This document shows, piece after piece, positions 1 to 64,000 of a stretch of DNA of 64,000 bases. Below the pieces are notes generated by a model, which saw only the letters and a program-made list of their open reading frames with translations, ran no database searches and was not told the DNA's origin. Position 1 is the first letter of the stretch. Every line of letters starts with the position of its first letter. The stretch is from Chloroflexota bacterium (GTDB lineage Bacteria > Chloroflexota > Anaerolineae > Promineifilales > Promineifilaceae), in NCBI GenBank assembly GCA_024223125.1, contig JAAEOP010000139.1:17606-81605 (forward strand), read 5' to 3'. The position numbers and the translations under genes were made by a program.

Positions 1-1121
1 ATCAACTGCTCTACAGAAACAGACTCTTCTAAAGATTTAACCGTTTTGGCAACCCGTTTGGGGGAGATATTGTGAATACGCATCTCGATCAGGTTTTCGG
101 GAGTGACGTTGGGCAAAATGGTTTGCATGGCGGCCGCGTAATCGGCGCTGACATTGTGGATACGCATGGAGATGAGTGTATTGGCGTCCAACCCTTTGAA
201 GCCAAAGCCACGCATTTCTTTGATGTATTCTGGGGCAACATTGTGGATGCTAAAGCTGACAATGTCATCCAGGTCAAGGTCAGTGTAATCCATGTCGTGC
301 AGCTTTTGGATGAAAGATGGCCGTACATTATGAATTCCCAACTGTACAATCTGGTCCACATTATAATGGGCAAAGCTCAATTTGCGGATTTCATGTACCA
401 GTTCCGGGCGAATGTTGTGAATGCCCAACTGCACTACGTCGTCCACCGTTAGGTCATCCAGCCCCAATTCTCGAATTTCCCGCACCAGACCCGGCCGTAC
501 ATTGTGGGTGGCTAATTGGACAATATCATCAACGATTAAGTTACCCAATTTCAGTTCTTGCATTTCCCGGATGAAATCGGGACGTACATTGTGGATGCCC
601 AACTGCACCAGGTCATCTACATTAAAGTTTAGCCCCAAGCTGCGAATGTCGCGCACATAATCTGGCCGCATGTTGTGGATGCTGAACTGGACAAGATCGT
701 CCACCGTCAAATCATCAAAGCCGAACTTCATCATTTCCTGGACGTATGACGGCCGTACATTGTGAATCGCCAACTGTACCATGTCATCTACAGTCAGGTG
801 GGTAAAGTTTAACGCTTGCAACTGGCGCACAAAGTCCGGGGAAATATTGTGGATTTGTAGTTGATGCAGGTCATCCTGACTCAAATTGTCTAACCCCGCC
901 TCGGCCATTGCCCGCATATAAGCATTGCTGACATGCGATTGGCGTTGGATGTGGAAGATGCGGGGGACATACGGGATTTGGGGTGCTTTGGGGGGGTGGG
1001 GCACGGTCGTGTCTGAATGTACCGCGCTCATTGTCAAAGCATCCAATAGTTGGGCGGCTTCTGCGGCCGTAATCTTCCCTTCGGCCAACATTGTTAAAAT
1101 CATCTTTCTTTCTTCGTTCAT
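1..1121 (-). CDS. 29-residue tandem-repeat protein with SHOCT-like N-terminus (C-terminus off the left edge)
   Basis: The frame is open from the ATG at 1121 to the window edge, giving 373 residues with no stop, so the gene is partial. A strong ribosome site (TAGGAGAAATAGTC before the ATG) fixes the start. Residues 1-28 form a two-helix SHOCT-like/YvlB-LiaX N-terminal motif (ILTMLAEGKITAAEAAQLL). A short proline-rich linker follows. From about residue 60 onward there are eleven repeats of 28-29 residues, with consensus HNVRPxYVxEMxxLGxDDLxVDDLVQLxI. I recall similar repeats after membrane metallopeptidases of the BlaR1 type and in DUF2089-linked proteins, but no function is established that I know of. 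The repeats look like helical solenoid units suited to binding a partner. It is the last of three minus-strand genes and shares its SHOCT-like motif with the DUF2089 protein upstream. Confidence 0.85.
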   Translation of the reverse strand, partial: MNEERKMILTMLAEGKITAAEAAQLLDALTMSAVHSDTTVPHPPKAPQIPYVPRIFHIQRQSHVSNAYMRAMAEAGLDNLSQDDLHQLQIHNISPDFVRQLQALNFTHLTVDDMVQLAIHNVRPSYVQEMMKFGFDDLTVDDLVQFSIHNMRPDYVRDIRSLGLNFNVDDLVQLGIHNVRPDFIREMQELKLGNLIVDDIVQLATHNVRPGLVREIRELGLDDLTVDDVVQLGIHNIRPELVHEIRKLSFAHYNVDQIVQLGIHNVRPSFIQKLHDMDYTDLDLDDIVSFSIHNVAPEYIKEMRGFGFKGLDANTLISMRIHNVSADYAAAMQTILPNVTPENLIEMRIHNISPKRVAKTVKSLEESVSVEQL

Positions 1122-1132
1122 GACTATTTCTC

Positions 1133-1360
1133 CTAAACTGTATTTGCAATTTGTTCGCTGGTCGGTGGTGTTACCTGACGTTTTATGGCTGTCCCTAACC
1201 GGATGAACAGTTCGCCACTGACGAGTAATACTTTTTTGTGGGTTGGTTTCTCTTTTTTGGGGACAACGTTTAGATGATAGGCATATTTTTGAGCGAGATC
1301 TGCTTCTTCTCGCCGCAATTTATGCGTTTGATACCATAAATGATCGGGACAAAATAACAT
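1133..1360 (-). CDS. small hypothetical protein, 75 aa
   Basis: The ATG at 1360 has a clear ribosome site (GCAAGGAGAAACTC). The longer frame reaching 1411 has a low-complexity alanine start and no such site, so I prefer the shorter form. The product is a basic, soluble protein with no signal peptide or membrane segment. It begins MLFCPDHLWYQTHKLRREEA. I do not recognise a family. It sits between the DUF2089 regulator and the tandem-repeat protein, 11 bases upstream of the latter, so the three are probably co-transcribed. Confidence 0.55.
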   Translation of the reverse strand: MLFCPDHLWYQTHKLRREEADLAQKYAYHLNVVPKKEKPTHKKVLLVSGELFIRLGTAIKRQVTPPTSEQIANTV

Positions 1361-1446
1361 GAGTTTCTCCTTGCAGGGGGCAGCTGCGGCCGCACGGCCG
1401 TTACCTGCCACACTAAATTTGCTTAATTGAGGGGTGCGATGTTGTT

Positions 1447-1842: not shown

Positions 1843-1930
1843 TAGTTCATTCTCACAGACTATAATTTGATATTTTTGACAACGGGGCCAAAGTTGTGAG
1901 CATAATACACAATAATCCATCATTTGTCAA

Positions 1931-3023: not shown

Positions 3024-4075
3024 CTGCTTTCTGACCTGCGCCACTGCCAGCCAGTGCGGGAAGCGGCAATGCTGCCCAAGATGATTAGTGGCAACACGGC
3101 TACCAGGTGAAAAATGATGGTGAACCCGGCAATCGTAGCTTCATTTTCCAGGCCAAAGCGAAGCAGTAGAAAAGCAGCCACGCCATCAAAAATGCCAATT
3201 TTGCCGGGGGTGGTAGGCGGAACCAGGGCCAGGGTGATGGCAATATTGATGACGGCCGCTTCCACCCAGCCAAAGGGGATATGGAAGGCAGCAAAGAGCA
3301 GCAGCGGCGTCAAAAGAGAAATAAGCGCGATGACGGCCGAACTACCCAACAAGATCAACGCCAGACGCCGGTCTCGCAAAGCAGCCAATCCTTCCAACCC
3401 GGTAATGGTCCAGTGGGTTAAACGGCCAGCCAGAGACGGGGGCAAATATTTGAATACGGCTTGCATAAGGCGGATGATCCACTCAGTTTTAAGGGCGATG
3501 AGAGCTAAAACAAGCAGCACAATTAGTGCCGCACCGCCGAGGATCAGGGTGCTGTTGGTTTCGTTAAGAAAGTCGGGAATGACAACGGCCGACACCACAA
3601 CTGCCAGCAATAAACCCAACATCATCATATCCAGCGTTTTTTCCAAAACCAACGTTCCCAATGTGCGAGTTTTGCTCATGATGGTCAGCCTATCCAGAGC
3701 AAAAATGCGGGCCAGCTCACCCAGCCGGAAAAACGGCACCAAAATGTTGACGTAAGCGCCCAACAGCAGCGCCCAAAATAGAGGCATGAAGGGGGGGGCC
3801 TGCTGTCGGGGAGGGAACATTAACTGCCAGCGCCAGGTTTTTAATAACAGAATAGAAAGAATGGTTAAGAGGCTGAGGAGGATGTAAAACAAATTGGCTG
3901 CGACCAGAGCTTGCCACAACGCCGCCAGACTTACACGGCCGACTAGATACAAAATGCCGGCAGCCAAGAGCAAGATGGTCAGGGCAATATTCAACCAGGC
4001 CCAAATTGAACCCATAGGCGGTCTTGTAGGTGGCGGCAGTTCATGTTTGTCGCTGCTGAGATTACTCTCTTTCAT
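3020..4075 (-). CDS. flippase-like membrane protein, lysylphosphatidylglycerol synthase TM domain (UPF0104/AglD2)
   Basis: This is a 351-residue integral membrane protein with about eight hydrophobic helices. It carries the family signature near the C-terminus (PTTPGKIGIFDGVAAFLLLR, compare PGGLGxxE in relatives). An early RLGELARIFALDRL-type loop lies between helices. This PF03706 domain is found alone beside glycosyltransferases, where it is thought to help transfer or flip lipid-linked sugars. It lacks the soluble aminoacyl-transferase part of MprF. Both ends overlap neighbouring genes by four bases (ATGA), so it is translationally coupled with the DUF2723 protein upstream and the GT2 enzyme downstream. 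Confidence 0.85.
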   Translation of the reverse strand: MKESNLSSDKHELPPPTRPPMGSIWAWLNIALTILLLAAGILYLVGRVSLAALWQALVAANLFYILLSLLTILSILLLKTWRWQLMFPPRQQAPPFMPLFWALLLGAYVNILVPFFRLGELARIFALDRLTIMSKTRTLGTLVLEKTLDMMMLGLLLAVVVSAVVIPDFLNETNSTLILGGAALIVLLVLALIALKTEWIIRLMQAVFKYLPPSLAGRLTHWTITGLEGLAALRDRRLALILLGSSAVIALISLLTPLLLFAAFHIPFGWVEAAVINIAITLALVPPTTPGKIGIFDGVAAFLLLRFGLENEATIAGFTIIFHLVAVLPLIILGSIAASRTGWQWRRSESR

Positions 4076-5484
4076 AGTTGATTATCCTGACAGTTCAATG
4101 AATAGGCTGGTGTTTGGTCCGGTTTGATTTGGGCGTGGCATAACGGCCGTATGCTACCATTTCTCCGTTCAAAGACAGCTAAATCGTCTGTCTGAGGTAG
4201 ATAGAGATCAGGATATTCTGTTTGTAATTGGTCACGATACCAGTCAAAGGCAAATAAATGTGTGTCTACCAGGATGGTATCCGGGCGCTGTCCCTCAGCA
4301 AAATGGAAATACCACAAACTGAATGTGGTAGCCGCATCGGAGGAGAGGATGAGGGCGTTGGTGGGGGCGGTGGATAGCAGATTTGTTGCCAACGGCCGCA
4401 GCCTATGATCATCGCTTAAATTTTGCGTCTGGAAGTTTAGCAATAACAGGAACAGAGGCAAACTTAAAGCTATCCAGCCAATGCGGCGTAACCCAATTGT
4501 CAACAGAGGAGTCAGCAGTAACAGAGTCGGTAAAATCAACACAATGGCGTCATCAGTGTTGTAGGTGAAGGCATAAATAAGATAGATGACGGCCGTAAAC
4601 AACAATCCAAACGTAAGACGGCGTAAGGGGTGCAAATCTGGCTGGCGACCAATTTGCCAGACTCCAATTCCAAGAACAATAAAACCAATCCAGGCAAACT
4701 GTTGGGATAGCAGCCAGGTCCAATCAGACAGGCGCAGCAGCAGTTGGTCTGGAGGTAGGCTAAAGAGATTGGGGCGGTAAATGTGGCCGCTAACCAGCCA
4801 CCACCAGCCGCTTAAAGTAGTAGGGTTGCTCCAAATAATTGGACTGCCGGATTGGGCAATGAAGGGGATGAGCAAGAATGGGAGCAAGCCAATCCCCACG
4901 CCTACGCCCAATTTGGGGAGATTTCGTCGCTCAATGCAGAGAATTGCTAATGGCAGCATGAGCAAAGAGGTGAGGTGGGTAGTTATACTTAAGCCCAAAA
5001 ATAGGCCGGTGAACCACGACGGCCGTTCACCCAATAATGCCCATAGAAATAACGATAGGCACAACAAATTCAACCCGTACACTTCGCTGATGGTGGCCTG
5101 GCCCCAAACGAGCGGAGCCAGCGCAAATGTGAGTCCGACGGCAACGGCCGTGCCCATTTGCTGCTTTTGGTTGAAGTGGTTGGTCAGAAGATGGAACGAG
5201 GCCGCAGTGGTGAATCCGGCCGCCAGAGCAACGGCCGTAGCCGAAAGCAAGTTTAAGCGATAGGCTACCTCCCCCCAGGGAAGCAAGCTGAACAATTTAC
5301 CAATCAATATGTAAGTGGGGTAGCCGGAAGGGTGGGGAACGCCTAAGGTGACAGCGGCCGTAATCAATTCACCGCCATCACTGCCATAGTTGGCCCAGGT
5401 TAAATCGGGAGCCAGGGTAAGATTGTATACTGCAAATGCCAGACTGGTTGTTAGTAGCGCTGCGGCGGCTGTTTCAATACGCAC
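4072..5484 (-). CDS. DUF2723 membrane protein (putative glycosyltransferase, PMT/TMEM260-like)
   Basis: The product has about ten membrane helices and the DUF2723 signature near its N-terminus: an acidic SDGGELITAA stretch, then VPHPSGYPTY. This resembles the acidic catalytic loop of GT-C protein mannosyltransferases, and the family includes TMEM260-type O-mannosyltransferases. I chose the GTG at 5484 because AGGGGG lies directly upstream and it overlaps the previous stop by only 11 bases. An ATG at 5535 would add 17 residues and enlarge the overlap. The C-terminal 110 residues are extracytoplasmic. In this cluster it may glycosylate surface proteins such as the neighbouring PT-rich proteins, which is inference. 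Confidence 0.8.
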   Translation of the reverse strand: MRIETAAAALLTTSLAFAVYNLTLAPDLTWANYGSDGGELITAAVTLGVPHPSGYPTYILIGKLFSLLPWGEVAYRLNLLSATAVALAAGFTTAASFHLLTNHFNQKQQMGTAVAVGLTFALAPLVWGQATISEVYGLNLLCLSLFLWALLGERPSWFTGLFLGLSITTHLTSLLMLPLAILCIERRNLPKLGVGVGIGLLPFLLIPFIAQSGSPIIWSNPTTLSGWWWLVSGHIYRPNLFSLPPDQLLLRLSDWTWLLSQQFAWIGFIVLGIGVWQIGRQPDLHPLRRLTFGLLFTAVIYLIYAFTYNTDDAIVLILPTLLLLTPLLTIGLRRIGWIALSLPLFLLLLNFQTQNLSDDHRLRPLATNLLSTAPTNALILSSDAATTFSLWYFHFAEGQRPDTILVDTHLFAFDWYRDQLQTEYPDLYLPQTDDLAVFERRNGSIRPLCHAQIKPDQTPAYSLNCQDNQL

Positions 5485-6103
5485 CAGTCCCCCTGATGAC
5501 GGCCGGAATTGTGCGTAGAATAATGAGCAGATCACCCCGCAGCGTGATGTGGCCGATATAGGTTAAATCTAGTTGCAGACGCTGTTCGGTTGATAGATTT
5601 CCCCGGCCAGCAATTTGCATGGGGCCGGTAAGCCCTGGTTTTACCAATAAACATTGCCGTTGCTGTTCGTTGTATTGGGCCACAATGTGGATGTCTTCGG
5701 GGCGAGGGCCAACCAGACTTATCTCACCTTTTAACATGTTCCAGAATTGGGGCAGTTCATCCAGACTCCAACGACGTAAGAAGCGGCCAATTCTGGTTAT
5801 GCGGGGATCGTGACGGTTTTTGGCTATGATCTTGGTCGTTGCTGTCTGGGGATTGTGGGACATGGAACGAAATTTGTAGGCGATAAACGGCCGTCCTTCT
5901 AGTCCAGCGCGTGGCTGCCGAAACAAAATGGGACCGGGTGAATCCAGCCGGATGGCTGTGGTGATGAATGGGGTCAGAAGCAAAGTGACGGCCAACCCAA
6001 TTAACGCGCCGCAGATGTCAATTGTGCGTTTGGCAACGGCTGTCGCTGGGGGAATAAGGAGTATACCGGTGTATTGCTGTCTTGGTGATGTTGTTTCAGG
6101 CAT
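5474..6103 (-). CDS. sugar-phosphate transferase initiating polysaccharide synthesis (WcaJ/RfbP catalytic domain)
   Basis: This 209-residue protein is the catalytic half of a polyisoprenyl-phosphate hexose-1-phosphate transferase (PF02397). One hydrophobic helix near residues 27-50 is followed by SPGPILFRQ, the KFRSM motif, RRWSLDELPQFWNMLKGE, SLVGPRPE and KPGLTG, all hallmarks of the family. It would transfer a sugar phosphate from a UDP-sugar to undecaprenyl phosphate, the first step of exopolysaccharide repeat-unit assembly at the membrane. It lacks the extra N-terminal membrane helices of WcaJ and so resembles the short, EpsL/PglC-like class. It lies 7 bases downstream of the C25 lipoprotein gene. 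Confidence 0.92.
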   Translation of the reverse strand: MPETTSPRQQYTGILLIPPATAVAKRTIDICGALIGLAVTLLLTPFITTAIRLDSPGPILFRQPRAGLEGRPFIAYKFRSMSHNPQTATTKIIAKNRHDPRITRIGRFLRRWSLDELPQFWNMLKGEISLVGPRPEDIHIVAQYNEQQRQCLLVKPGLTGPMQIAGRGNLSTEQRLQLDLTYIGHITLRGDLLIILRTIPAVIRGTGAY

Positions 6104-6110: not shown

Positions 6111-8219
6111 TCATGAATTGTTAGTTGCAGACGGCCGTATGATTATTGTGCTGGGGTCGCCCAGGAGCACAAATGTGTCGCTGATTTCTCGCAGCCCAAT
6201 GTTATGTTCCAGATTTAAGGAAAGTTTTGCCTGTTGAAAGGCATCCCCCATGCGTTCTGTTTCCTGGTTATTGAGGTTTTGCAGTAAAGCAGTGGCAAAT
6301 GGTTCCTGGTGGGTGGAGAGTGTCAGGCTGGTGGCGGCCACGAGCAGCACGGGGCCGTTTTCATGCTTGAGCATCACTTCAGACAAGGATTCGACATCGG
6401 GTTGGGCAAAGAGACCGGTGAGGCAGGTAAGCTGGACGACGATGGGAGGATTGTCAGATGCTAATCCGCTGACGGCCGCGCTGTTAAACACATCATCCTT
6501 GCCCCACAGTTCCAGACTGCCGTGGCCGATGTAGGTGGTTAACCAGGCGCCATCGTTCCAGGCAGCGGTCACTTCGGGAATGGTTGCCCCGTCCAGATGG
6601 GTAACAGCTTCGTCGGGGATTTGGCTGTCTTGCCAGATGCGTTGGGCAATAATGCCAAACTGTTCTTCGGTGCCATCGGTGGTGAAGAGGGCGTTGTCGG
6701 CGGCCGTACTCTGTTCATACGCTAATGTGCGGGCGACTAATGATTCTACTTCGGCCGGGGTGTTAACCGGCCAACGGCCGACAGCCAGGTCAGGCCGCAT
6801 ATCGCCATCAATATCAGCCAGACGAGAATCACTGACGGTTTCGCCACTGTATTGCACTGGAACCATCGGCGAGGGTAGATGATTTTCAGGCAGGGGATGG
6901 GTGTAGCTACGATAATCGGATGTGGCATCACCGACGAGAAAGAGGTATTGGGGTGGCGTTTGCCAATTTTCAACCGCGTAAGTTACAAACTGATTGATGG
7001 TCGTAGGCGAGGCTTCGCCATAACCAAATTCAGCGTATATTTCGGCCGTGGGTACAACGGCGACGCTTAAACCTTGTTCCTGGCGGGCTGTTACCAATGG
7101 TTCTAGCGCTGGCGCCAGTGCGTCGGTGGTGATGATGAGCAGATCGGCCTGGTTGTCACTGTTGTGCCAGTCGCTCTGGCGCATAGGTGTGACGGACTGG
7201 GGCGAGAGAAAACCCTGGGGGCCTACGGCCGTGACCTGCATTCCCTCAGCCACATCTACAAACATCTGGCCATCCTCATAACGGCCGGAAAGCAGCGCTG
7301 GTTGGGTCGGGTCTTGTACATCCAACACCAGGGGCGCGTCTGCAAAACCAGATAGAGTGAAGGCTGATTCCTGATCAGCGCTAAAAATAAGCTGGTCTGT
7401 TTGGGCGGCGGCTGGGGTAGGGAAGGTCAGATCGAGGTTGTTTAGCTGCATGATGTCCAGAAGAGCCGCGCCGGGAATTCCATTGTCCAGGGTGATGCTG
7501 TTTTCGCCAGCCTGTAAGGTTCCGGGAGGAAGGGGAATATTGGCGGTGTAATGGGTGTTCCCATCCCAACGAATTGTGTCTATGGCCTGGCCGTTGACGC
7601 GCAGTTCAAAATCATGATCATCTTCGATATCGAGAGCATGGGTGACGCCCCATAAAGTTATTTGCAAGCTGCCAGACCCATCAGTGAGGGGGGGGAGGGT
7701 AAAGGGGATTTCAACATTTTCTCCTTGGCGCAATTTTTGCCAATACCAGGGATCGGTATGTTCGATGTCTAATGCCTGGGCTTCGTAGAGAAGGTTGTCT
7801 TCCAGGTGGCGAGATTGGGTGATGATGTTTTGGGTGGAACCGGTGGCGGGCACGGCCGTATCCGCCATTATTTCGGCTGCCTGGCCTGTTTTTAGCAGGT
7901 ACGGTCGGGTTGTAACATAGCGGCTGTCGGGAGCTTGCCCGTAAAAAATAAGGTTGTTGTTTTGTATGAGAATGGGGACAGCCGTGCCGTTTTGGCTTAG
8001 GTGGATGTTGTCGGCCGTGAAGGTGGGCGTTTCCAGACCGGCTTCTTCAAAATGAGCTGGGGTAAGCTGGTAAAGGCCATCTTCAGTAATGTGAATGAAC
8101 AGTTTGCCGGAAGAAGTTTCCCCAACGATAGGGGTGTTGTTTTTAGACCGGTTGCAGGCGACCAATAAGAGTAGGGCGGACAAGGCGCCAATGATCAGGA
8201 TGTGTCGTATTGTTTTCAC
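6111..8219 (-). CDS. C25 (gingipain-like) cysteine peptidase lipoprotein
   Basis: This 702-residue protein begins with a lipoprotein signal (MKTIRHILIIGALSALLLLVAC, lipobox LVAC). The N-terminal half is beta-rich and includes a jelly-roll-like stretch. The C25 peptidase domain covers about residues 365-695. It shows a VVPTAEIYAEFGYG segment, FLVGDATSDYR, the catalytic histidine in YIGHGSLELWG and the catalytic cysteine in VVQLTCLTGLF. Gingipains and the type IX sortase PorU belong to this family. Here the enzyme should be anchored outside the cytoplasmic membrane. A second C25 peptidase lies two genes upstream, so processing or attachment of cluster-encoded surface proteins is a reasonable inference. 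Confidence 0.88.
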   Translation of the reverse strand: MKTIRHILIIGALSALLLLVACNRSKNNTPIVGETSSGKLFIHITEDGLYQLTPAHFEEAGLETPTFTADNIHLSQNGTAVPILIQNNNLIFYGQAPDSRYVTTRPYLLKTGQAAEIMADTAVPATGSTQNIITQSRHLEDNLLYEAQALDIEHTDPWYWQKLRQGENVEIPFTLPPLTDGSGSLQITLWGVTHALDIEDDHDFELRVNGQAIDTIRWDGNTHYTANIPLPPGTLQAGENSITLDNGIPGAALLDIMQLNNLDLTFPTPAAAQTDQLIFSADQESAFTLSGFADAPLVLDVQDPTQPALLSGRYEDGQMFVDVAEGMQVTAVGPQGFLSPQSVTPMRQSDWHNSDNQADLLIITTDALAPALEPLVTARQEQGLSVAVVPTAEIYAEFGYGEASPTTINQFVTYAVENWQTPPQYLFLVGDATSDYRSYTHPLPENHLPSPMVPVQYSGETVSDSRLADIDGDMRPDLAVGRWPVNTPAEVESLVARTLAYEQSTAADNALFTTDGTEEQFGIIAQRIWQDSQIPDEAVTHLDGATIPEVTAAWNDGAWLTTYIGHGSLELWGKDDVFNSAAVSGLASDNPPIVVQLTCLTGLFAQPDVESLSEVMLKHENGPVLLVAATSLTLSTHQEPFATALLQNLNNQETERMGDAFQQAKLSLNLEHNIGLREISDTFVLLGDPSTIIIRPSATNNS

Positions 8220-9342: not shown

Positions 9343-12300
9343 TTACGGTTTCACAATAACGGGTAAATTAACATGATTGTCCAGAGGGGGCAGTGTGGGT
9401 GTAGGTGGCTCTGGGGTTGGTGTTGGCGGCGGTGGTTCTGGCGCCCAATATAGATTCAACGCGGGATCCCCTTGCAATGTAAAGGAGTAGATTTCTGAAT
9501 GGTGATGAACGCCTTGCAAATATTGTAAGGCAGAATAAAGAACTGCATTCCCCATTGTTTGACCATAACCGACGAACAAACCATCGTAAAAACCTTCATG
9601 TAATACTGTGTGTTCAGTTGTATAGCCCAAACCAGATGAAGACCACATGGCCGCAGAGCCGAATGCGTTTCCTTGAACATCGTAACGCATATAGGTTTCA
9701 CTAATTGAATCTAAACCGGGTAAGGCAAAGTATCCATCTAAACAGTCGGCGCTCAACATGACGGTGGGTAAATCATAGTTTTGCCAATGGATTGTATCAC
9801 TCGTTGTCATGATGTCGTCACCTGACCAACTGTTGATAGACCCATGGCCGCGGTAGTTAAAAATGAAGACGCCGTTGTTTATGGGGGGAAACATAGCATT
9901 ACGCAAGTCGTCAACTGTGGCGTAATTGTCCAGGCATTGTTCATCTATCTGGAAGGTATTGGGGATGTTGGCGCTGGTGTTGCTATTTTCCTGGCAGAAA
10001 TCGCCGGCGTTGGGGTCGAATCCATCAGCGACAAACAGGAAGGGAAGGTTTTGTAAAGTAGCATCCTGGCCGTTTTGGTCGTATTTCATAATTTTGCGGA
10101 TGGCATTGTCAGCCTCTAAATCGTTGTTAACAGCGATACGGCCGATAGCCATATCAGGTAGATTATCATTGCCTGAAATCATGGCCAAAGCTGGATCAGA
10201 GGGGATCATGCCTTGGAAGCGGTCGGTAAATGAAAAATCAGTTGGTACAAATGATGGGGCGGAAGTATCCCAGGGGTGAGTGCAGGTAGCGCAGGGCAAA
10301 CCGCGTGGGTTCATTGTGGCATCGCCCACCAAGAAGATATAATGAGGCGCCACAGTCCAGTTGCCCAGAGCGTAAGTCAGGTAATTGCGGATGGCGTCGG
10401 GAATTGCCAGACCGTAGCCATATTGGTTAATAATATCTTCAATATCTACAATGTGCGTGGTCAGACCACCGTATGTACTCTGGGAGCGATGGGCAGCTAA
10501 CAGGGCGGTCTGGGTCATAAATTCATTATGAGCGATGGCTACCCAATCGGCGGCGCTACCAGGGGGATTGAGGTTGGGTGGGGTGTAGGCAGTTATGCTC
10601 TGTACGCTTTTGATGTTGGCTGGCGTTGTGGCAATGAATCTGGAGTGGGGGGCATGGTTGAGACCAAAGGTGTAGGTGTAAGGGCCGCTGCCGGAAATAC
10701 CGCTGCTCATGTTAACGGCCGATGGTTGTGTCGGATCAGTAATATCCCAAACCAGGGCACTGTTGCTGTTAAAGCCAGCAACCCGCAGCCCGCCACTGCC
10801 GATTTCATCCGCCATAATTAGCTGATCATTTTGAGCTATCAGGTGGCGCATGTACTCAACCGTTATGCGGTTTAGATAGAAAAAATCCCCGCTGGTGTAA
10901 TCTATGGTGATTTGATTGGTGCTGCTGAGTAGGTAAGAACTGGAAATAGTTTGCGAAATGTTGGTATTGAGACGGCCGGTCCACATTTTAGATGTTGGGG
11001 TGGGGTAGTTGTTGTAGGTGATGTCCACTGTGTAATCACCGACCGGGGGTATACCTTTGGCGCGGGAGAAGAGTTCAACAGTATAAGTAGCTGTCGGCGC
11101 GGCCGTGTAATCAATTTCTTCCAAATCTACATCAATCACGGCCGTGCTGGTATATACTCGCGTCCCTCTCCCCAACCGCTGCCAATACCAGGCATCCGCT
11201 TCGTTGGGGAAGGTAGACCATTGATCAGTCCAGGTGCTGATCCAGTCCAGCATTGGTTCCTTGGTGGTAGTGTGCCAGGAGCCGGTACGGCCGCTGCTGG
11301 GAGAGGCATTGGTGAGGGTGGGAATGGTATCGGCCGTGCCGTTGGCCCATAACCAGTAAACATTATCGGAGACGTAATGCTGTTCTAACCGTGTACCCGT
11401 ATCTGCAAACGCCCAGCCATAAAAGCGGATAATTTCGCCAGATTCCAAAATAGTATCGGCGTCACCAATGAACTGGTAAGCAACCGGCTGTCCACGATAG
11501 TTCATCTCAATAGTGGCCGGGTTGACGCTGGCGATATTCATACCGGCCGCGGCCAGGTCAGCGCCAGTGACGTCATAAATGCCGGTTTCGTTGACTGTTA
11601 ATTTGAAGGTTTCTTGACCGACAGGTAAGACGGTAGCCGGGGCATTTTGCACATCTGCGGGCAGGCTGCGCCATTGGTGGGCCTGGTTAAAGTTAAGGAT
11701 GAGATTGGACAAGCCATTGTAGGCGGTTTTGTTTTGGATGGGCAACGGCCGTAACTCATCAACCTGCCCCCCTATAAACTTGACCGCCACCGACAGTTGT
11801 TGTGCCTGTTGCAGTTCGCCGGAAACTGGATTGTAGCGCAGGGGATAAAGTTGCAACGAAACAAGCCGTAAGTCCCGGTAAATCATCGGTTCTGAAACTG
11901 AGTAAAGTGTGGCCGGATAATTGGCGTCGGTGTTGTAAATGGCCTCATTTTTATTGAAAATGGTTGTGGGCGTTTCCGTAAAGCCCACACCTTCGGCCAT
12001 CTCAAATTGGATGCCGGAGGCCGGTTTTACCTGACTGGACGGCCGTGTAAGCAAATTCTTCTCTTGAACGTCAACCTCTAGTTGAGCGTCTGGCGGCAGG
12101 GCGATATACGTTGTGTAATAGGGCAAGGCGGGCGCGCCGGCTTCGGTGAATTGTTGGGTCAGACCGGAAATTGTGACATTGCCATCTTCGTCAACCTGAA
12201 CGGGTGGCACGACCAGCTCAAATTGAATACCGTTGGCGTCTGATGAGAGGTTGTTTACGGCCGTTTGTTGAACGGTTGATTTTTTAGGAATGTCAGGCTG

Positions 12301-12399
12301 GGCGAGGGTCTTGCTATTATAAAAACGAAGACTCCCTGCTAAAATGCTCAACGTTACGGCCGTGATAGCCAGATAATGAACGATTCTTTTTCGTATCAT
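9343..12399 (-). CDS. large secreted C25 (gingipain-like) cysteine peptidase
   Basis: This 1018-residue protein starts with a signal or anchor sequence (residues 1-34, hydrophobic AITAVTLSILAGSL). The first 580 residues are beta-rich, including a propeptide-like part. The peptidase domain covers about residues 620-960, with FLVGDATMNPRG, the histidine in NYRGHGSINSW and the cysteine in MLSADCLDGYF. The C-terminus is a short PT-rich linker (PPPTPTPEPPTPTLPP) followed by the terminal peptide NHVNLPVIVKP. PT-rich linkers ending in a short LPxxxK/R-like peptide recur in Chloroflexota exoproteins, as I recall, and may be a sorting tag. The gene lies directly downstream of the PqqD-like gene. Confidence 0.9.
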   Translation of the reverse strand: MIRKRIVHYLAITAVTLSILAGSLRFYNSKTLAQPDIPKKSTVQQTAVNNLSSDANGIQFELVVPPVQVDEDGNVTISGLTQQFTEAGAPALPYYTTYIALPPDAQLEVDVQEKNLLTRPSSQVKPASGIQFEMAEGVGFTETPTTIFNKNEAIYNTDANYPATLYSVSEPMIYRDLRLVSLQLYPLRYNPVSGELQQAQQLSVAVKFIGGQVDELRPLPIQNKTAYNGLSNLILNFNQAHQWRSLPADVQNAPATVLPVGQETFKLTVNETGIYDVTGADLAAAGMNIASVNPATIEMNYRGQPVAYQFIGDADTILESGEIIRFYGWAFADTGTRLEQHYVSDNVYWLWANGTADTIPTLTNASPSSGRTGSWHTTTKEPMLDWISTWTDQWSTFPNEADAWYWQRLGRGTRVYTSTAVIDVDLEEIDYTAAPTATYTVELFSRAKGIPPVGDYTVDITYNNYPTPTSKMWTGRLNTNISQTISSSYLLSSTNQITIDYTSGDFFYLNRITVEYMRHLIAQNDQLIMADEIGSGGLRVAGFNSNSALVWDITDPTQPSAVNMSSGISGSGPYTYTFGLNHAPHSRFIATTPANIKSVQSITAYTPPNLNPPGSAADWVAIAHNEFMTQTALLAAHRSQSTYGGLTTHIVDIEDIINQYGYGLAIPDAIRNYLTYALGNWTVAPHYIFLVGDATMNPRGLPCATCTHPWDTSAPSFVPTDFSFTDRFQGMIPSDPALAMISGNDNLPDMAIGRIAVNNDLEADNAIRKIMKYDQNGQDATLQNLPFLFVADGFDPNAGDFCQENSNTSANIPNTFQIDEQCLDNYATVDDLRNAMFPPINNGVFIFNYRGHGSINSWSGDDIMTTSDTIHWQNYDLPTVMLSADCLDGYFALPGLDSISETYMRYDVQGNAFGSAAMWSSSGLGYTTEHTVLHEGFYDGLFVGYGQTMGNAVLYSALQYLQGVHHHSEIYSFTLQGDPALNLYWAPEPPPPTPTPEPPTPTLPPLDNHVNLPVIVKP

Positions 12400-47235: not shown

Positions 47236-47237
47236 GT

Positions 47238-48128
47238 TTATGTGGGGTTAGCCCGCTCTTTATGCAGTTTACGCAACTGTGGTGGACCTTGCAATATTCG
47301 TTCACGCATTGCATCTACTGGCCATTCATCTTCATAACCTTTGTCAAAGCGAAAGGGTGTTAAACATTCCAACCACCATGTCGCCCCCAATTCGGAGCGT
47401 TGCTCGACCAAATTAGCCGCTTCTTCAGATTCTGCATCAGGTGTAACCCCCATACAGATTATATCTATTGGCTGTTCATGTTTGCGATGCTTACTTAAGT
47501 AATGAACCATGTCATCCAGTTGGGCAAGCTCTTGTTCATTCTCCCAAACTGAGAACAAAGGAAATGCCCCATCCCATTTTGTGGCCCTTCGAAAGGGCGC
47601 TTTATTTGGCCAGTTTCCACCCACCCAAATAGGAATGTGAGGCTGCTGTACTGGTTTGGGTAGAAAATGTGCATTCTCGATGTGATAATATTGCCCCGTA
47701 TAGCTGAACGGTTCACCACTCCATAACCCAACCAGCACGCTTAATGCTTCATCCAGCATTGCCCCTCGCTTTTTGAGATCAGGCTGTTCACCCAGATGCG
47801 CCCACTCGGATTCTCCTCCCCCGATACCTACACCCAGTGTTAGCCGCCCTCCTGAGAGATGATCTATCGAAACCGCCTCGCGTGCCAACTTCCAGGGACG
47901 ACGCCGGGGAAGGGGTGTAACCGTAGTGCCGATACGGATGCGGTGGGTAGTGACAGCAATCGCAGCCAGGGCTACCCAAGGATCAACCATTGGCAATGTC
48001 CAACCCGCAATATGATCCCAAATGAAAAAACCATCCCAACCTGAGTTTTCTGCATCCTGAGCTAGATTGGCCAGAACACGTGCTTCTCCATAGGGACCAA
48101 AGTTGGGTAAGTAAATACCGAATTTCAT
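47238..48128 (-). CDS. LLM-class (luciferase-like) flavin oxidoreductase
   Basis: This 296-residue TIM-barrel protein starts MKFGIYLPNFGPYGEARVLA and shows the bacterial luciferase family features WDGFFIWDHI, the ITTHRIRIGTTVTPLPRRRPW stretch, and GVGIGGGESEWAHLG with the phosphate-binding loop. A flavin or F420 monooxygenase or reductase role is likely, but the substrate is unknown. I chose the ATG at 48128, since the longer frame to 48329 encodes a charged leader unlike the family. It lies 207 bases after the PstS-like gene on the minus strand, and the pair sits between the two palindromic repeats. Confidence 0.9.
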   Translation of the reverse strand: MKFGIYLPNFGPYGEARVLANLAQDAENSGWDGFFIWDHIAGWTLPMVDPWVALAAIAVTTHRIRIGTTVTPLPRRRPWKLAREAVSIDHLSGGRLTLGVGIGGGESEWAHLGEQPDLKKRGAMLDEALSVLVGLWSGEPFSYTGQYYHIENAHFLPKPVQQPHIPIWVGGNWPNKAPFRRATKWDGAFPLFSVWENEQELAQLDDMVHYLSKHRKHEQPIDIICMGVTPDAESEEAANLVEQRSELGATWWLECLTPFRFDKGYEDEWPVDAMRERILQGPPQLRKLHKERANPT

Positions 48129-48151
48129 AGAGTGGTTTATACATAAGTTAG

Positions 48152-48206
48152 TCTGCATATTCTCGTGCTTTTTTAGTTGAACAGATGATTTTCTGTATAT
48201 TCTCGT
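48152..48206 (-). promoter_or_regulatory. direct repeat ahead of the LLM gene
   Basis: TCTGCATATTCTCGT (48152-48166) and TCTGTATATTCTCGT (48192-48206) differ by one base and are 40 bases apart. A partial third copy (TTCTGTATAAT) lies near 48235. They could be operator sites upstream of the oxidoreductase. No regulator is adjacent. Confidence 0.35.
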
Positions 48207-48335
48207 AAATTGGACTTTTATATAGAATATCTTTTCTGTATAATACTGGACATCTCCTTCGCTCCGTAAAAAATACTCTATCTGTTCCTGACAGTCAAGG
48301 TGTCTATGGGATTGTAAAGTACCAGACAATCTTAG

Positions 48336-54921: not shown

Positions 54922-57900
54922 ATGAGAGGAGTTTCACTATTTAGTAGCTGGCACTGTGCTGTTTTTCTGCTGTTTGTTCTGGGTTTAACCAGTTGTGGGC
55001 AGTCGGCGCCATTAGCATCTTTGCCAGTCGCAGTTACGCCAATATCCTCCTCGGCTGTCACCCTCCCAACACAACCTGTCTCCAACAACACATCAAAACT
55101 GGATACTGACAACGACCAGATTCGTTTTGAGCATTTATCACTTGAAGATGGTCTTTCGCACAGCACAGTCCTAAGCATTTACCAGGACAGTAAGGGGTAT
55201 TTGTGGTTTGGTACGTTGGATGGATTAAATAAATATGATGGCCACAACTTCACCATTTACGAAAACGATCCCGATAATCCCTATAGTCTGAGCGACAATA
55301 TCGTGCAAGTTATTTTTGAAGACTGGGCCGGTAATATGTGGTTTGGTACGGTAGATGGCGGTCTCAACCGTTTTGACCGGCGTACGGAGCGGTTTGTTTC
55401 TTATAAACACGATCCGGCCGATCCCGACAGTTTGGGTAGTAATGAGGTCACGGCCGTGCTAGAAGACCAAACTGGCGCCCTATGGGTAGCTGCATTTAGA
55501 GGCGGGCTAAACAAATTTGTGCCGGAAACAGAACAGTTTATTCGTTACCAACACGAGCCAGATAACCCTGGCAGCTTGAGTAGCAATCAGATATGGGCTG
55601 TTCATGCGGATAGCCAAGGGATGTTGTGGGTAGGAACTGTGGGAGGCGGCTTAAACCGGTTTAATCCCCAAACCGGGCAGGTAATGAGATATTATTTCAA
55701 CCCTGATGATCCTGATAGTCTGAGCCACAATATTGTAGCCGCCATTCATGAAGATCGTTTTGGGGATTTATGGATAGGAACCTACGGTGGTGGTTTGAAT
55801 CGTTTTGATCGGGAAACAGGTCGATTTTCCCATTTTCAGCACGATTATCGGTACACATCTGGCATTGGTGGGAATCGTATTATTTCTATTCAGGAGGATA
55901 GGGCGGGCGCTTTATGGTTGAGTATTGTGGGCAAAGGGGTAGATAGATATGATCCGGTTGACGGCCGTTTTACTCATTTCGAGCCTGATCCCAATGACCC
56001 CAATGATTTAAGTGGTGACCTGATATTAACCATTTTCAGCGATCAATCTGGTGTTGTGTGGCTGGGTACAAGTGGCGACGGCGTCAATAAATATGATTCT
56101 GATAAACGTCATTTTATCCGCTATCAACCTGATCCCAATAATAAAAACAGTCTGCAAGGTAGCAGTGTCTCAGCTATTATTGAAGATTCCCTGGGTATTT
56201 TGTGGGTCGGTACAGAAGCCGGGCTGAATAAATTTAACCGGACGACTAGTCGCTATATCCATTACAAAAGCGATCCCCAAGATCCTTATAGTTTAAGCAG
56301 TGATGTTGTCCTTTCAATTCTTGAAGACAGCCGGGGAATATTGTGGATAGGAACCCGAAATGGACTGAATGTGTTTGATCGTCAAGCAGAAAACGCAAAC
56401 GTTTTTCGGCACAATCCTTTAGATGTCAACAGCTTGATCCATAATTCTGTGGGGGTGATTTATGAGGATACGGCCGGGAATATTTGGCTGGGAACAGCGC
56501 TCGGACTGGATAAATTCGATCTTGATTCCAGTATCTTTGTCCATTATGTAAATAATCCAGATAATCCCCAAAGTATAACCGAAGGGGGTATAAGCACCAT
56601 TTTTGAAGATAAATCTGGCAATATGTGGGTGGGAACCTCAAATGGCTTAAACAAGTTTAATCAACAGAGTAATCAGTTTGTTCGTTACCAACATGATTCT
56701 TATGATTCGACCAGCTTGAGTAATGATACCGTCTTGGCAATCTTTGAAGACGATGCTGGTTATTTATGGGTAGGTACAAAAGGGGGCGGATTGAATAAAC
56801 TCGATCAAACGACGGGTACAATTCAACGTTACTTGAAAAAGGATGGTTTAGCTAACAACACGATTTATGGCATTTTGGGCGATGAATTTGGAAACTTGTG
56901 GCTTAGTACCAATAAAGGGTTGAGCCGATTTAATCCGCTTACAGAAATATTTACGAATTATGACAAACGGGACGGGCTGCAAAGTGATGAGTTTAATGCC
57001 AATGCGTATTTTCAAAGCAACAGTGGTGATCTGTTTTTTGGCGGCATCAATGGCTTCAATGTGTTTCAGCCTCAAAAAATTACCGATAATCCTTATGTGC
57101 CGCCCATTGTTTTAACAACACTTACCCAAAGCGGCAAGCCGATTGCCCCAGAACAGCAAGCGGACACGTTGGAAACGGTGACGCTGCGTTGGCCTAATAA
57201 TTTCTTTGAGTTTGAGTTCGCTGCCTTAAGCTTTTCGCAGCCGGAAAAAAATCAGTATGCGTATATGTTGGAGGGGTGGGAGGAGTCATGGAACTATGTG
57301 GGCACACGGCCGTTCGGCCGTTATACCAATCTCCCTGGCGGAACCTATACATTGCGTGTGCGTGGTTCCAATAATGATGGTGTTTGGAATGATGCTGGTG
57401 TCGCTTTGGAAGTGATTGTTGTGCCTCCATTTTGGGCGACTTGGTGGTTTAGGGGATTGACGGCCGTTCTCTTCCTTAGCGTGCTTGTTGTAGGATATAG
57501 AGTGCGGGTGAGAACTGTGCAAAACCGGAATCGGGAACTTAAACGACAGGTATCTGAACGAACACATACGCTGGCCCAAAAAACAGTAGAGCTAGACCGG
57601 CGGCGTAAAATTGCCGAGGGGCTGCGGGAGATTATGATCATTCTCAATTCCAACCGCTCCCTGGCTGATAGTTTGCGCCATATCGTCCAGCAAGCGGCCG
57701 TGCTGACTAGGGCTGATGAGGTCATCATTTTTCGTCTGGAAGCAAACGAAGCACCCGCAATTTTGGCTAATAGTTCAGGTGTCCATCTAAACGGTGAATT
57801 GAGCGCTTATATGACTTTGTTGCAAGATGGGTTGACGCTTGAAGATGGAACACGGCCGTTACGCATCTCCAACTTTAGTAACGGCCGCCAGCCTCGTCAA

Positions 57901-58755
57901 TACCATTCCTTGTTGGGAATTCCACTTAAGGTGGAAGATGATAATTTTGGCGGGTTGGCCTGGTTTTACACCGACCAACGAACCTTTTCGGAGGAAGAAG
58001 TGGAGTTGGGTTTCTCCTTTGCCGATCAGGCCGCGTTGGCAATTGCCAATGATCAATTACGCAGCACGGTTGAGGAAACGGCCGTAGAAATGGAACGCGG
58101 CCGTCTGGCCCGTGATCTGCATGACGCCGTTACCCAAACGCTCTTTTCGGCCGGGTTAATTGCTGAAGTGTTGCCTGCTACTTGGGATGGAAACCGAGAC
58201 AAGGGGCAAAAGCTGCTACATGAACTCAAGCAGTTGAACCGGGGGGCAATTGCCGAAATGCGGACGTTGTTGTTGGAGTTACGGCCGTCTGCCTTAACTG
58301 ACGCCAATTTGGGCGACCTGCTTAAACAGTTGGCCGACACCGTTACCGGACGCACAGGTATTCCTGTGTCTGTACAGGAAACTGGTGAATGTCATCTGCC
58401 GGCCGATGTGCATGAAGCCCTATACCGAATTGCCCAGGAAGCATGTAACAACATTGTCAAACATGCTCAGGCCAATCAGGTGACGTTAATGTTAAACTGT
58501 CCATCGGCACACAATTGTGAAATGATAGGGCAGCGTGTTGCTTTGCAGGTGTGTGATAATGGTCGTGGTTTCAATCCTGACGCCATTCCTCCTACCCATT
58601 TAGGCGTCAAAATAATGCGCGAACGGGCCGAATCGGTGGGGGCCAAATTTAAGGTACAAAGCCAACCTGAACAGGGCACAGAAATTACGGTGACATGGTT
58701 GGGGCCGACACGCGCCACCAACTGCCACCCCTTATCCACCACTCCCCATTTATGA
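54922..58755 (+). CDS. giant propeller sensor histidine kinase (Reg_prop, Y_Y_Y, GAF, HisKA_3)
   Basis: This 1277-residue protein has a lipoprotein-type signal (LLFVLGLTSC). Fourteen LWxGT-type repeats (about 60-720) follow, consistent with two seven-bladed propellers, then a Y_Y_Y domain (about 735-805), a membrane helix (about 835-852), and a GAF domain (about 900-1040). The HisKA_3 phosphoacceptor is RGRLARDLHDAVTQTLFSA, and the HATPase has YRIAQEACNNIVKHAQ and VCDNGRGFNPD. It should sense an extracellular compound and phosphorylate the NarL-type regulator 8 bases downstream. The gene starts with ATG directly at the promoter. Confidence 0.92.
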   Translation: MRGVSLFSSWHCAVFLLFVLGLTSCGQSAPLASLPVAVTPISSSAVTLPTQPVSNNTSKLDTDNDQIRFEHLSLEDGLSHSTVLSIYQDSKGYLWFGTLDGLNKYDGHNFTIYENDPDNPYSLSDNIVQVIFEDWAGNMWFGTVDGGLNRFDRRTERFVSYKHDPADPDSLGSNEVTAVLEDQTGALWVAAFRGGLNKFVPETEQFIRYQHEPDNPGSLSSNQIWAVHADSQGMLWVGTVGGGLNRFNPQTGQVMRYYFNPDDPDSLSHNIVAAIHEDRFGDLWIGTYGGGLNRFDRETGRFSHFQHDYRYTSGIGGNRIISIQEDRAGALWLSIVGKGVDRYDPVDGRFTHFEPDPNDPNDLSGDLILTIFSDQSGVVWLGTSGDGVNKYDSDKRHFIRYQPDPNNKNSLQGSSVSAIIEDSLGILWVGTEAGLNKFNRTTSRYIHYKSDPQDPYSLSSDVVLSILEDSRGILWIGTRNGLNVFDRQAENANVFRHNPLDVNSLIHNSVGVIYEDTAGNIWLGTALGLDKFDLDSSIFVHYVNNPDNPQSITEGGISTIFEDKSGNMWVGTSNGLNKFNQQSNQFVRYQHDSYDSTSLSNDTVLAIFEDDAGYLWVGTKGGGLNKLDQTTGTIQRYLKKDGLANNTIYGILGDEFGNLWLSTNKGLSRFNPLTEIFTNYDKRDGLQSDEFNANAYFQSNSGDLFFGGINGFNVFQPQKITDNPYVPPIVLTTLTQSGKPIAPEQQADTLETVTLRWPNNFFEFEFAALSFSQPEKNQYAYMLEGWEESWNYVGTRPFGRYTNLPGGTYTLRVRGSNNDGVWNDAGVALEVIVVPPFWATWWFRGLTAVLFLSVLVVGYRVRVRTVQNRNRELKRQVSERTHTLAQKTVELDRRRKIAEGLREIMIILNSNRSLADSLRHIVQQAAVLTRADEVIIFRLEANEAPAILANSSGVHLNGELSAYMTLLQDGLTLEDGTRPLRISNFSNGRQPRQYHSLLGIPLKVEDDNFGGLAWFYTDQRTFSEEEVELGFSFADQAALAIANDQLRSTVEETAVEMERGRLARDLHDAVTQTLFSAGLIAEVLPATWDGNRDKGQKLLHELKQLNRGAIAEMRTLLLELRPSALTDANLGDLLKQLADTVTGRTGIPVSVQETGECHLPADVHEALYRIAQEACNNIVKHAQANQVTLMLNCPSAHNCEMIGQRVALQVCDNGRGFNPDAIPPTHLGVKIMRERAESVGAKFKVQSQPEQGTEITVTWLGPTRATNCHPLSTTPHL

Positions 58756-61811: not shown

Positions 61812-62807
61812 ATGATTTCATTCTTGATCAGGCGGCTGCTGTGGTTAATACCGGTTCTATTCATCATAACGCTTGTCACCTTTTTGTTAATGCGGGCTGC
61901 TCCTGGCGGTCCGTGGGATCGTGATCCCGGCCGTCGCCAGTTAGACGTGGCCACCCAAGAGAAACTGAATGAACAATTTGGTCTGGATAAACCGATGTGG
62001 CGGCAATTTATTGCCTATACCTTTGGTGACTTTGATGGCGAAAATGGAGAATTTGCTTGCGGCGCTGTTTGCGGTAATTTGGGGCCTTCTTACCGGCAGC
62101 GCGGCCGTACCGTACAAGACATTTTATTCAGTGTGCCAGAAGGAAAGCCGTTTTGGAACAGCCGCTTTGGTTACTCGATTCGTCTGGGATTGTTAGCTTT
62201 GTTGTTTGCCATTATCGTGGGTATCCCGGCCGGCATACTGTCTGCCCTGCGCCAAAATACATGGATAGATTACACAAGCGCTGTTGTAGCAAATATTGGT
62301 GTCTCTGTGCCCAATTTTGTCATTGGTATTTACCTGATCATTATCTTTGCCGTTACCTTGAAGTGGGTGAGTGTTATTCCCCGCTCTTGGGCTGATCCGC
62401 GGGCGTGGGTCATACCAGCATTGGTTTTGGGATTTGGCACCATGGCTTTTACAGCCCGGCTCACACGAGCGGCAATGGTGGATGTGATGCGCCAAGATTA
62501 TGTACGCACAGCCCGCGCCAAGGGACTGCGTGAAAATGTGGTCGTCGGCCGTCATATGCTAAAAAATGCTCTGATCCCTGTTGTCACCGTTTTGGGGCCA
62601 GCGTTGGCGGCATTGGTCACCGGCTCGTTCATCATTGAAACGATGTTTGCTTTTCCGGGTATCGGCCGTGAATATGTTCAGGCCATCGGCAATCGAGATT
62701 ATTCTATGATCTTAGGCACGACCCTGATTTATGGGGTACTCATTGCCCTGGCAAATCTGAGTGTAGATATTATTTATAGTATTATTGATCCCCGAATTCG
62801 GTTGTGA
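61812..62807 (+). CDS. ABC transporter permease, DppB/OppB type
   Basis: This 331-residue permease starts MISFLIRRLLWLIPVLFIIT, typical of the DppB branch, has about six helices and the ATPase-coupling EAA-like loop TARAKGLRENVVVGRHMLKNAL, followed by PFPGIG-like FAFPGIGRE. The ATG at 61812 follows TAGGAGCTAAACCT. The longer frame from 61704 translates the simple repeat and is rejected. It pairs with the next permease. Confidence 0.94.
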   Translation: MISFLIRRLLWLIPVLFIITLVTFLLMRAAPGGPWDRDPGRRQLDVATQEKLNEQFGLDKPMWRQFIAYTFGDFDGENGEFACGAVCGNLGPSYRQRGRTVQDILFSVPEGKPFWNSRFGYSIRLGLLALLFAIIVGIPAGILSALRQNTWIDYTSAVVANIGVSVPNFVIGIYLIIIFAVTLKWVSVIPRSWADPRAWVIPALVLGFGTMAFTARLTRAAMVDVMRQDYVRTARAKGLRENVVVGRHMLKNALIPVVTVLGPALAALVTGSFIIETMFAFPGIGREYVQAIGNRDYSMILGTTLIYGVLIALANLSVDIIYSIIDPRIRL

Positions 62808-62819
62808 GGGAAATTGATC

Positions 62820-63800
62820 ATGGAAGTCATTTCAAATTCGCAAGATAAGCCGCGTGTAGCCACTGTAGACCCGCCACACTCTCGTAGCCAATGGGCAGAT
62901 GCCTGGAGCCGACTGCTACGTAATAAAGCATCTGTTGCCGGTTTAATCTTCACTATGTTTTTTTTATTTGTCGCTATTTTTGCGCCATTATTAGCGCCCC
63001 ATAATCCGTTAGAGATTAATGATGGTAAAGGGCATTTACCTCCGGTTTGGGTAGAGGAGTCGGCCGCCGGTAAAAGCGGCGAGCTAGAATTTATCTTGGG
63101 TACTGACCAAATTGGCCGAGATGTCTTCAGCCGGTTGATTTATGGGGCGCGTGTTTCTATGTTTGTGGGACTGCTGCCTGTGTTTGTCATTTTGATTATT
63201 GGCACGGTGATTGGTATGATATCGGGTTTTTTCGGCGGCCGTACAGACAATGTACTCATGCGAATTACAGATGTGTTTTATGCTTTTCCGGGTCTCTTGT
63301 TTTTTATTATTTTGATGGTGACGCTGCGGGACACGGCCGTTGGTAAAGCATTCAACGGCTTGCTGTTACTGTTCATTGCCCTGGCTATTGTTTCCTGGGT
63401 GGGGGTTGCCCGGCTGGTGCGTGGATCAGTTCTGTCTTTGAAACAGCAAGAGTTTATTGAAGCGGCGCAGGCGATTGGGGCTACTGACGGCCGTATTATG
63501 CGCCGCCATGTTCTTCCCAACATTCTTAGCCCACTGGTGGTGTGGGTAGCGTTTGCTATTCCCGGTTTCATTATTGCCGAAGCGACTTTGGGGTATTTAG
63601 GATTGGGGCTGCGGCCAGCCACCGATCCAGACGCCTTCTTTATTACCAGTTGGGGCGTCTTGATGCTAGAAGGACGAGCCGCCCTCAGCGCCCAGCCCTG
63701 GATTCTACTGGCCCCGTCTCTATGTGTGGGGTTAGTTGTGATCGCCTTTACGTTTGTAGGTGACGGCCTGCGCGACGCCCTTGATCCCCGGCAGCGATGA
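62820..63800 (+). CDS. ABC transporter permease, DppC/OppC type
   Basis: This 326-residue permease has a soluble N-terminus with WSRLLRNKASVAGLIF, the DppC periplasmic loop with FILGTDQIGRDVFSRLIYGAR, six helices and the coupling loop EAAQAIGATDGRIMRRHVLPN. Its ATG at 62820 lies 12 bases after the previous stop, with GAGGG ahead. The TTG at 62814 is an alternative. It completes the membrane core. The ATPases are not in the window. Confidence 0.94.
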   Translation: MEVISNSQDKPRVATVDPPHSRSQWADAWSRLLRNKASVAGLIFTMFFLFVAIFAPLLAPHNPLEINDGKGHLPPVWVEESAAGKSGELEFILGTDQIGRDVFSRLIYGARVSMFVGLLPVFVILIIGTVIGMISGFFGGRTDNVLMRITDVFYAFPGLLFFIILMVTLRDTAVGKAFNGLLLLFIALAIVSWVGVARLVRGSVLSLKQQEFIEAAQAIGATDGRIMRRHVLPNILSPLVVWVAFAIPGFIIAEATLGYLGLGLRPATDPDAFFITSWGVLMLEGRAALSAQPWILLAPSLCVGLVVIAFTFVGDGLRDALDPRQR

Positions 63801-64000
63801 GTTGACATAAACTTACGAGGTTTTGTGCATTATTTGTAATTATGACTTGATGATAAGCGTCTGGCCTTATGATTTTTGTCAACCGTCTATGTGTCTTCTG
63901 TCACTATAGGTAGAACAATCTCCCCCCTACGATCCTAAGTATTGTAACTTTCTAAAATTGAGGAGTGAACATCCTCAGATGCCCGTCCGCATTTGAGAAT

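Follow-up and report, generated by a model that had tools for sequence, protein, structure and literature searches.

The closest described system is HIP1, the highly iterated palindrome (HIP) GCGATCGC of cyanobacteria. In the available part of Elhai 2015 (PMC4390886), HIP1 is given at 300-2700 copies per Mb with observed-to-expected ratios (O/E) of 55-228, and most of its deviations affect the two terminal bases; the accessible text of PMC6604393 lists several suggestions for its role and no agreed function. Here we describe a palindromic octamer, ACGGCCGT, with the core CGGCCG, that is dispersed through a 64,000-nucleotide stretch of Chloroflexota DNA (contig JAAEOP010000139.1, positions 17,606 to 81,605; hereafter the window) and through related genomes, and that constitutes a HIP1-like highly iterated palindrome in a second phylum. 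Among the top-ranked openly accessible papers, none describes a genome-wide repeat of ACGGCCGT or CGGCCG, and none reports HIPs in Chloroflexota. As far as the published account of HIP1 was available, the two elements share a palindromic octamer, a fixed hexamer core and a variable outer pair (HIP1 and TCGATCGA in cyanobacteria), the frequency and O/E of the Chloroflexota octamer lie within the HIP1 range, and its one-base deviations likewise sit at the outer positions. They differ in phylum, in the unrelated core, in the order-wide series of outer pairs, and in that two methyltransferase families are not common to the Chloroflexota carriers.

Two further systems offer partial parallels. Escherichia coli Chi (GCTGGTGG) is also an over-represented octamer and is read by a DNA enzyme, RecBCD or AddAB for Chi-type sites, in an orientation-dependent way, but it is non-palindromic and far from filled, whereas the Chloroflexota octamer is a perfect palindrome and so has no orientation. 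The restriction enzymes EagI (CGGCCG), NotI (GCGGCCGC) and NaeI (GCCGGC) have as their sites the same palindromes as the Chloroflexota core and its variants. Such sites are usually avoided in genomes; the Chloroflexota palindrome, in contrast, is abundant.

In the window (positions 1 to 64,000), the octamer occurs 86 times at a mean spacing of 738 bp (median 470), and CGGCCG occurs 238 times. Dinucleotide shuffles yield a mean of 0.78 octamers (100 shuffles, largest 4), a separate expectation for the window is 0.88, Markov models of order 2 and order 3 predict 1.9 and 4.9, and 18 cores are expected at order 1, in agreement with the sequence-only reading, which had placed both motifs far above chance. 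Copies are found in all three coding frames (36, 28 and 20), as had also been claimed, with 84 of the 86 inside called open reading frames and only two between genes. This placement is what codon or amino-acid usage alone might give, an explanation whose probability we consider negligible. Shuffling synonymous codons of the window genes produces only 5.8 +/- 2.5 octamers (maximum 16 in 200 runs), and codon usage therefore does not explain the octamer, as the sequence-only reading had maintained. Usage alone is further contradicted by the presence of copies in every frame, by the enrichment between genes described below, and by nine other palindromes scored on the same genes, among which only the core-sharing GCGGCCGC (8/52 permitted positions filled) and CCGGCCGG (6/41) clearly exceed expectation.

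The RecN protein of the window is nearest to those of Chloroflexota metagenome-assembled genomes (MAGs; 77-78% identity), and in the RecN tree it groups with genomes G001-G006 (support 98/92). The whole-genome count proposed with the original observation was run on these relatives: of the 56 genomes in the order to which G001 belongs, 29 exceed 2,800 copies of ACGGCCGT, with a maximum of 15,176. That maximum belongs to G002 (7.5 Mb; 183 copies of the backwards-read pattern), and G001 has 15,031 copies in 7.2 Mb (backwards-read pattern, 130). All but two of these 29 genomes have densities of about 1,000-2,100 per Mb, the exceptions being G308 at about 440 and G288 at about 510 (whole range 437-2,102). 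Together with O/E values of 82-112, the occurrence in all frames and the clade variants, these densities bear out the description of the octamer as HIP1-like. A draw of 298 genomes from the class includes 11 with more than 1,000 octamers, every one of them in this order; the highest count outside it is 430. Sampling of 39 genomes from other orders of the class, for the most part a single stretch per genome of no more than 20 kb, revealed no similar octamer; four of these samples were of insufficient length for scoring.

The core is raised more widely than the octamer: G162 (4.1 Mb) has 21,019 copies and G214 (7.4 Mb) 25,568, compared with 132 and 7,284 copies of the mirror hexamer GCCGGC in these two genomes. 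The outer base pair differs by clade. Most carriers of the order use A..T; G305 (9,414 copies) and G105 (7,668) use T..A; G008 uses G..C, with 36 copies in 21.4 kb sampled and 0.5 expected; and in G162, G288, G333-G335 and G214 the hexamer is preferred while its outer bases vary. G314 uses a different palindrome, TGCCGGCA, with 3,665 copies against 14 of ACGGCCGT. In the RecN tree, eight genomes with only 220-646 octamers each form a clade nested inside the A carriers, so loss of the system is apparently possible. GCCGGC itself shows a milder excess in other orders, where L248 (G040) has 128/204 permitted positions filled with 50 expected and L253 (G073) 132/184 with 46 expected, possibly a weaker system elsewhere in the class. 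It is nearly absent from G008 (51 in 8.0 Mb) and G162, a pattern that resembles site avoidance.

Raw counts were complemented by occupancy, defined as the fraction of filled positions among those where some choice of synonymous codons would yield the octamer without changing the protein. Genome samples were mainly stretches around recN, and the pooled A set comprises 27 of the 29 octamer-rich genomes, G308 and G288 having been excluded before pooling. In these 27 carriers, 614 of 688 permitted positions are filled, with 62.9 expected. The frame reading Thr-Ala-Val (TAV) is filled at 318/326 and the other two at 211/244 and 85/118. Against the codon expectation, the pooled odds ratio is 82; by frame it is 222, 126 and 183, and the three frames together cover all eight positions of the octamer. 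The fullest carriers are G319 (33/33), G321 (31/31) and G006 (45/46), and the lowest occupancies among the larger carrier samples are those of G306 (17/24) and G253 (21/29). Other dialects behave similarly but less completely: TCGGCCGA is filled at 43/66 and 43/60, GCGGCCGC at 34/43, TGCCGGCA at 45/76 and the hexamer of G162 at 263/317. The window fills 82 of 106 positions (5.8 expected from codon usage), and HIP1 fills none of its 29-30 permitted positions there. In the window the odds ratio is 59 for the exact octamer, 8.6 when one outer base deviates and 4.0 when both do; the corresponding values for the pooled A set are 82, 2.1 and 0.9, and the genome of the window is thus looser in its octamer than its relatives.

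Enrichment is of similar size inside and outside genes. Across the 27 relatives and the window, a dinucleotide null gives 8.5 octamers within genes, where 697 are seen (82-fold), and 0.43 in 41.6 kb between genes, where 48 are seen (112-fold), and the cause therefore acts on DNA and not on translation. Genes in this comparison were called by a simple longest-open-reading-frame script, so that the space between genes may contain small genes, and the stretches of six contigs hardly overlap. The early claim that the octamer also occurs in spacers thus holds for the relatives and the window taken together, although the window itself contributes only its two intergenic copies.

Filling hardly depends on neighbouring sites. 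Occupancy is 99/122 where the next octamer lies within 60 bp, 120/133 at 60-150 bp, 227/251 at 150-400 bp, 140/147 at 400-1000 bp and 28/35 at 1-3 kb, with no crowding drop beyond 60 bp. A spacing-limited model is not supported, as occupancy is not lower where sites are crowded. The same distances bear on an origin as a DNA uptake sequence, in which a pilus receptor would prefer octamer-bearing DNA and recombination would spread it. Uptake sequences, as in Neisseria and Haemophilus, are likewise short and hyper-abundant, have known clade dialects, and have had a drive proposed for them. The part of PMC1939737 at hand describes this molecular drive, and also uptake sequences that are non-palindromic and commoner between genes than expected; the Chloroflexota octamer is palindromic and enriched within genes as well. 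One site per fragment would be enough for uptake, yet crowded positions are filled, and we regard this origin as very unlikely. Avoidance of one-off sites in place of attraction to the octamer was also considered and rejected. Outer one-off variants stand at 2.7-6.4 times expectation in carriers and inner ones at 0.1-1.8 times; inner one-offs number 17 in the window (15.7 expected) and are only mildly depleted in carriers plus window (96 versus 130 expected).

HIP1 scored in the same way gives a comparable picture. On two cyanobacterial plasmid stretches it fills 26/42 (1.3 expected) and 24/41 (0.8 expected) of its permitted positions, and the tripeptide AIA occurs 18 times on each, against 5.6 and 5.3 expected. 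In viral-collection loci, median HIP1 occupancy is 0.50 over 80 scored of 88 clustered stretches; the 34 of these 80 loci picked by a fill threshold reach 663/794, a figure biased upward by that choice. IMG/VR loci such as L384, L422, L428, L418, L438 and L393 carry 3-5 HIP1 per kb with nearly all permitted positions filled. Chi, in 40 kb of E. coli genes, fills 6/35 (2.9 expected) and 0/18. By these occupancies the Chloroflexota octamer resembles HIP1, and Chi differs from both.

That a sequence-specific, per-site process acts on resident DNA is well supported. We tentatively favour, at slightly under an even chance, a DNA-level conversion ratchet that moves each site toward the perfect octamer independently of methylation, by way of a palindrome-reading protein. 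A candidate DNA-binding or nicking protein, probably dimeric, would recognise the perfect octamer. Perfect and imperfect copies could meet in heteroduplexes arising from replication errors, from recombination between genome copies or from phage recombination; the perfect copy would then serve as template, and the imperfect strand would be repaired to match. Gains would be kept and losses corrected, without any need for DNA methylation, and a changed contact of the protein with the outer base may produce the clade-specific outer pairs. Polyploidy is frequent in HIP1-bearing cyanobacteria. In other polyploid prokaryotes, published work documents conversion between genome copies. Support for the conversion ratchet comes from the near-complete filling, its equal strength in and between genes, its persistence where sites crowd, the mild excess of one-off variants at outer but not inner positions, the pull on TAV and the filled phage contigs, the last two of which are described below.

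Aligned sites are strongly conserved. The recN genes of 29 genomes hold 153 octamers on 19 aligned positions, and a comparison of 17 non-independent genome pairs with lineages in common finds 198 of 229 aligned sites retained. For sites with unchanged amino acids the figure is 187 of 187, compared with 59% for the same codons elsewhere, contrary to the earlier expectation of conserved over-representation at shifting sites. Such conservation follows from occupancy combined with protein conservation and alone cannot separate selection from conversion bias. The frozen sites fit per-site selection as well, in which a DNA-binding protein would use each octamer and every site would add a small, roughly equal benefit, through nucleoid packing, as a 'self' mark that a defence or degradation system leaves untouched, or as a palindromic, two-way Chi-like site. 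This alternative is a real possibility, though a less probable one; it fits the same occupancy data, the dialects resemble a drifting protein specificity, and phage and plasmid-like contigs carry the octamer, one of them more densely than the hosts. Selection would, however, lead one to expect diminishing returns at crowded sites, which are absent, and it sits poorly with equal strength within and between genes and with the low occupancy of Chi, a known selected site.

It also sits poorly with a pull on amino acids, which implies a cost. A carriers contain 327 TAV tripeptides where composition predicts 51 (about 6-fold), and 53 of the permutation TVA, also with 51 predicted. TAV is at 43 versus 40 in 16 genomes of other orders and at 12 versus 18 in the loss clade. 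T-dialect genomes show SA[DE] at 66 versus 14, and the G-dialect genome AAA at 24 versus 5. The pull depends on the frame, since RP dipeptides are not raised in A carriers (383 versus 401) and [NDHY]GR, 2.9-fold in A carriers, is at 1.5- to 2.2-fold in non-carriers too; both frames tell against the conversion ratchet.

A further explanation, proposed by Elhai for cyanobacteria, is methyltransferase-directed mismatch repair, in which a resident enzyme methylates the core and G-methyl-C-guided repair makes and keeps sites. On the methyltransferase question (METHYLTRANSFERASES), the part of Elhai 2015 (PMC4390886) available associates HIP1 and its alternates with methyltransferases and mentions some HIP1 genomes without a CGATCG enzyme, and the accessible part of PMC6604393 gives Synechocystis GGCC as methylated at N4. 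In the order studied here, the m5C methyltransferase family PF00145 is present in 26 of 56 genomes (6 of the 13 first searched) and the m4C/m6A family PF01555 is above cut-off in 45 of 56, not including all carriers; each was rejected as the cause on these grounds. The survey covers these two families in MAGs. G006, with 14,867 octamers, has no PF00145 and only a weak PF01555 match (E 4.6e-4), the same holds for G308 (6.2e-5) and G328 (5.0e-4; without RecN and MutL matches and probably incomplete), and G214 matches neither family. The resident methyltransferase expected of a HIP in each carrier was accordingly not found, G006 and G214 being without either family over cut-off and further methylase families not having been searched. 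Nor was the cognate nuclease or methyltransferase that a restriction-modification system would place in each carrier, the NotI family being in only 4 of 56 genomes and PF00145 in 26; further nuclease families were not searched. Outer pairs A..T and T..A are not predicted by a G-methyl-C model, though GGCC itself contains GC, and the limit of that model, near one site per kb, is exceeded without an effect of crowding. With two methyltransferase families not common to all carriers and no fall at crowded sites, methylation and spacing models are disfavoured, and we consider methyltransferase-directed repair improbable. The sequence-only reading had suggested a link to a methyltransferase or a DNA-binding protein; as a general cause the former does not hold for the families surveyed, and the latter is possible.

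Among 40 MutL proteins looked at, 30 keep the motif CPHGRP and 10 have it without its cysteine, and in eight of those 10 the motif DQHA is changed to DQQA or DQEA; we take these motifs to be the MutL endonuclease site. The altered proteins belong to G001, G002, G003, G005, G006, G319, G320 and G321 (L195-L197, L202, L293-L296) and to G316 and G317 (L297, L298), all within the 13-row RecN clade that includes the window. That clade (12 sampled genomes) has the highest octamer occupancy, at 349/370 versus 265/318 in the other pooled carriers.

The octamer is also present on mobile DNA. Four IMG/VR scans for three clustered copies of ACGGCCGT returned 47 contigs, a route that biases density upward, and 10 of the 47 have at least 20 permitted positions with at least 70% filled; many of the remainder are GC-rich with low, chance-like occupancy, and six contigs found via TCGGCCGA are filled below that level. 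Contig 3300048592_001391 fills 139/152 positions, with 158 octamers in 43 kb, and encodes terminase, portal, head protease and major head protein. Contig 3300022675_000018 (27/30) has terminase-like, portal and head protease genes, and 3300021517_000012 (17/21) has a portal gene. Two plasmid-like contigs, 3300033417_000002 and 3300030606_000015, are filled at 57/64 and 66/74. HIP1 contigs from the viral collection are alike in this respect.

Within the window, recN (TIGR00634; 35691-37430, + strand) has all seven permitted positions filled, at 35916, 36004, 36028, 36840, 37282, 37296 and 37321; the sequence-only reading had the seven copies right, with the first placed 10 nucleotides too far along. 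Dense filling is typical of the native genes, as at 4072-5535 (- strand; five octamers, 5/6 filled) and in a long gene with propeller and histidine-kinase domains at 54922-58755 (+ strand; seven octamers, 7/9). Two stretches are motif-poor and possibly foreign. The first, 37493-41205, holds one octamer (1/4 filled) and comprises a gene without a family match and a DNA-methylase-like gene (38515-41205, - strand; PF01555, E 1e-20), which carries that octamer. The second, 44302-48329 (- strand), holds none (0/3) and comprises a PEP-synthase-like gene and a luciferase-like F420-family oxidoreductase. Together they fill 1/7 positions compared with 81/99 in the rest of the window (Fisher p = 0.0005). 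The earlier proposal that octamer-free regions are foreign fits this occupancy, by which a recent foreign origin is possible. The unfilled genes argue against rapid editing of incoming DNA. Elsewhere in the window, two PorU-like proteins (6111-8219 and 9343-12399, - strand; type IX sortase family, below the NCBIfam cut-off) adjoin an exopolysaccharide gene cluster.

Several further observations weigh against the conversion ratchet. No responsible protein was found among the families looked for in the 56 genomes: MutH is in none, NotI-type nucleases are confined to the four genomes mentioned, and Vsr is not common to carriers, its 10 matches lying in eight genomes, each on a contig shared with a PF00145 match. 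One phage contig has 3.7 octamers per kb, compared with at most 2.1 in hosts, for which selection on phages is equally possible; it was found via clustered sites. Equilibrium occupancy fits conversion bias and equal per-site selection alike and cannot decide between them. The carriers without matches over cut-off to PF00145 and PF01555 were counted in favour of a methylation-free conversion ratchet.

More broadly, and at what we judge to be an even chance, highly iterated palindromes may represent a general genome-wide drive and not a cyanobacterial peculiarity. Such a drive would have arisen on unrelated cores in two phyla or more, occupy almost all permitted sites, alter tripeptides throughout the proteome, switch its outer-base dialect between clades, be open to loss, pass into resident phages and plasmids, and require no methylation of DNA. 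A second HIP-like system with variants, a loss and carriers without the expected methyltransferase families turns the question of function into a comparative one, namely which gene tracks the dialect. The occupancy measure separates explanations that raw counts leave mixed. A DNA-level force able to shift amino-acid sequence is relevant to protein evolution and to codon analyses, and the octamer provides a marker by which phages and plasmids can be linked with their hosts.

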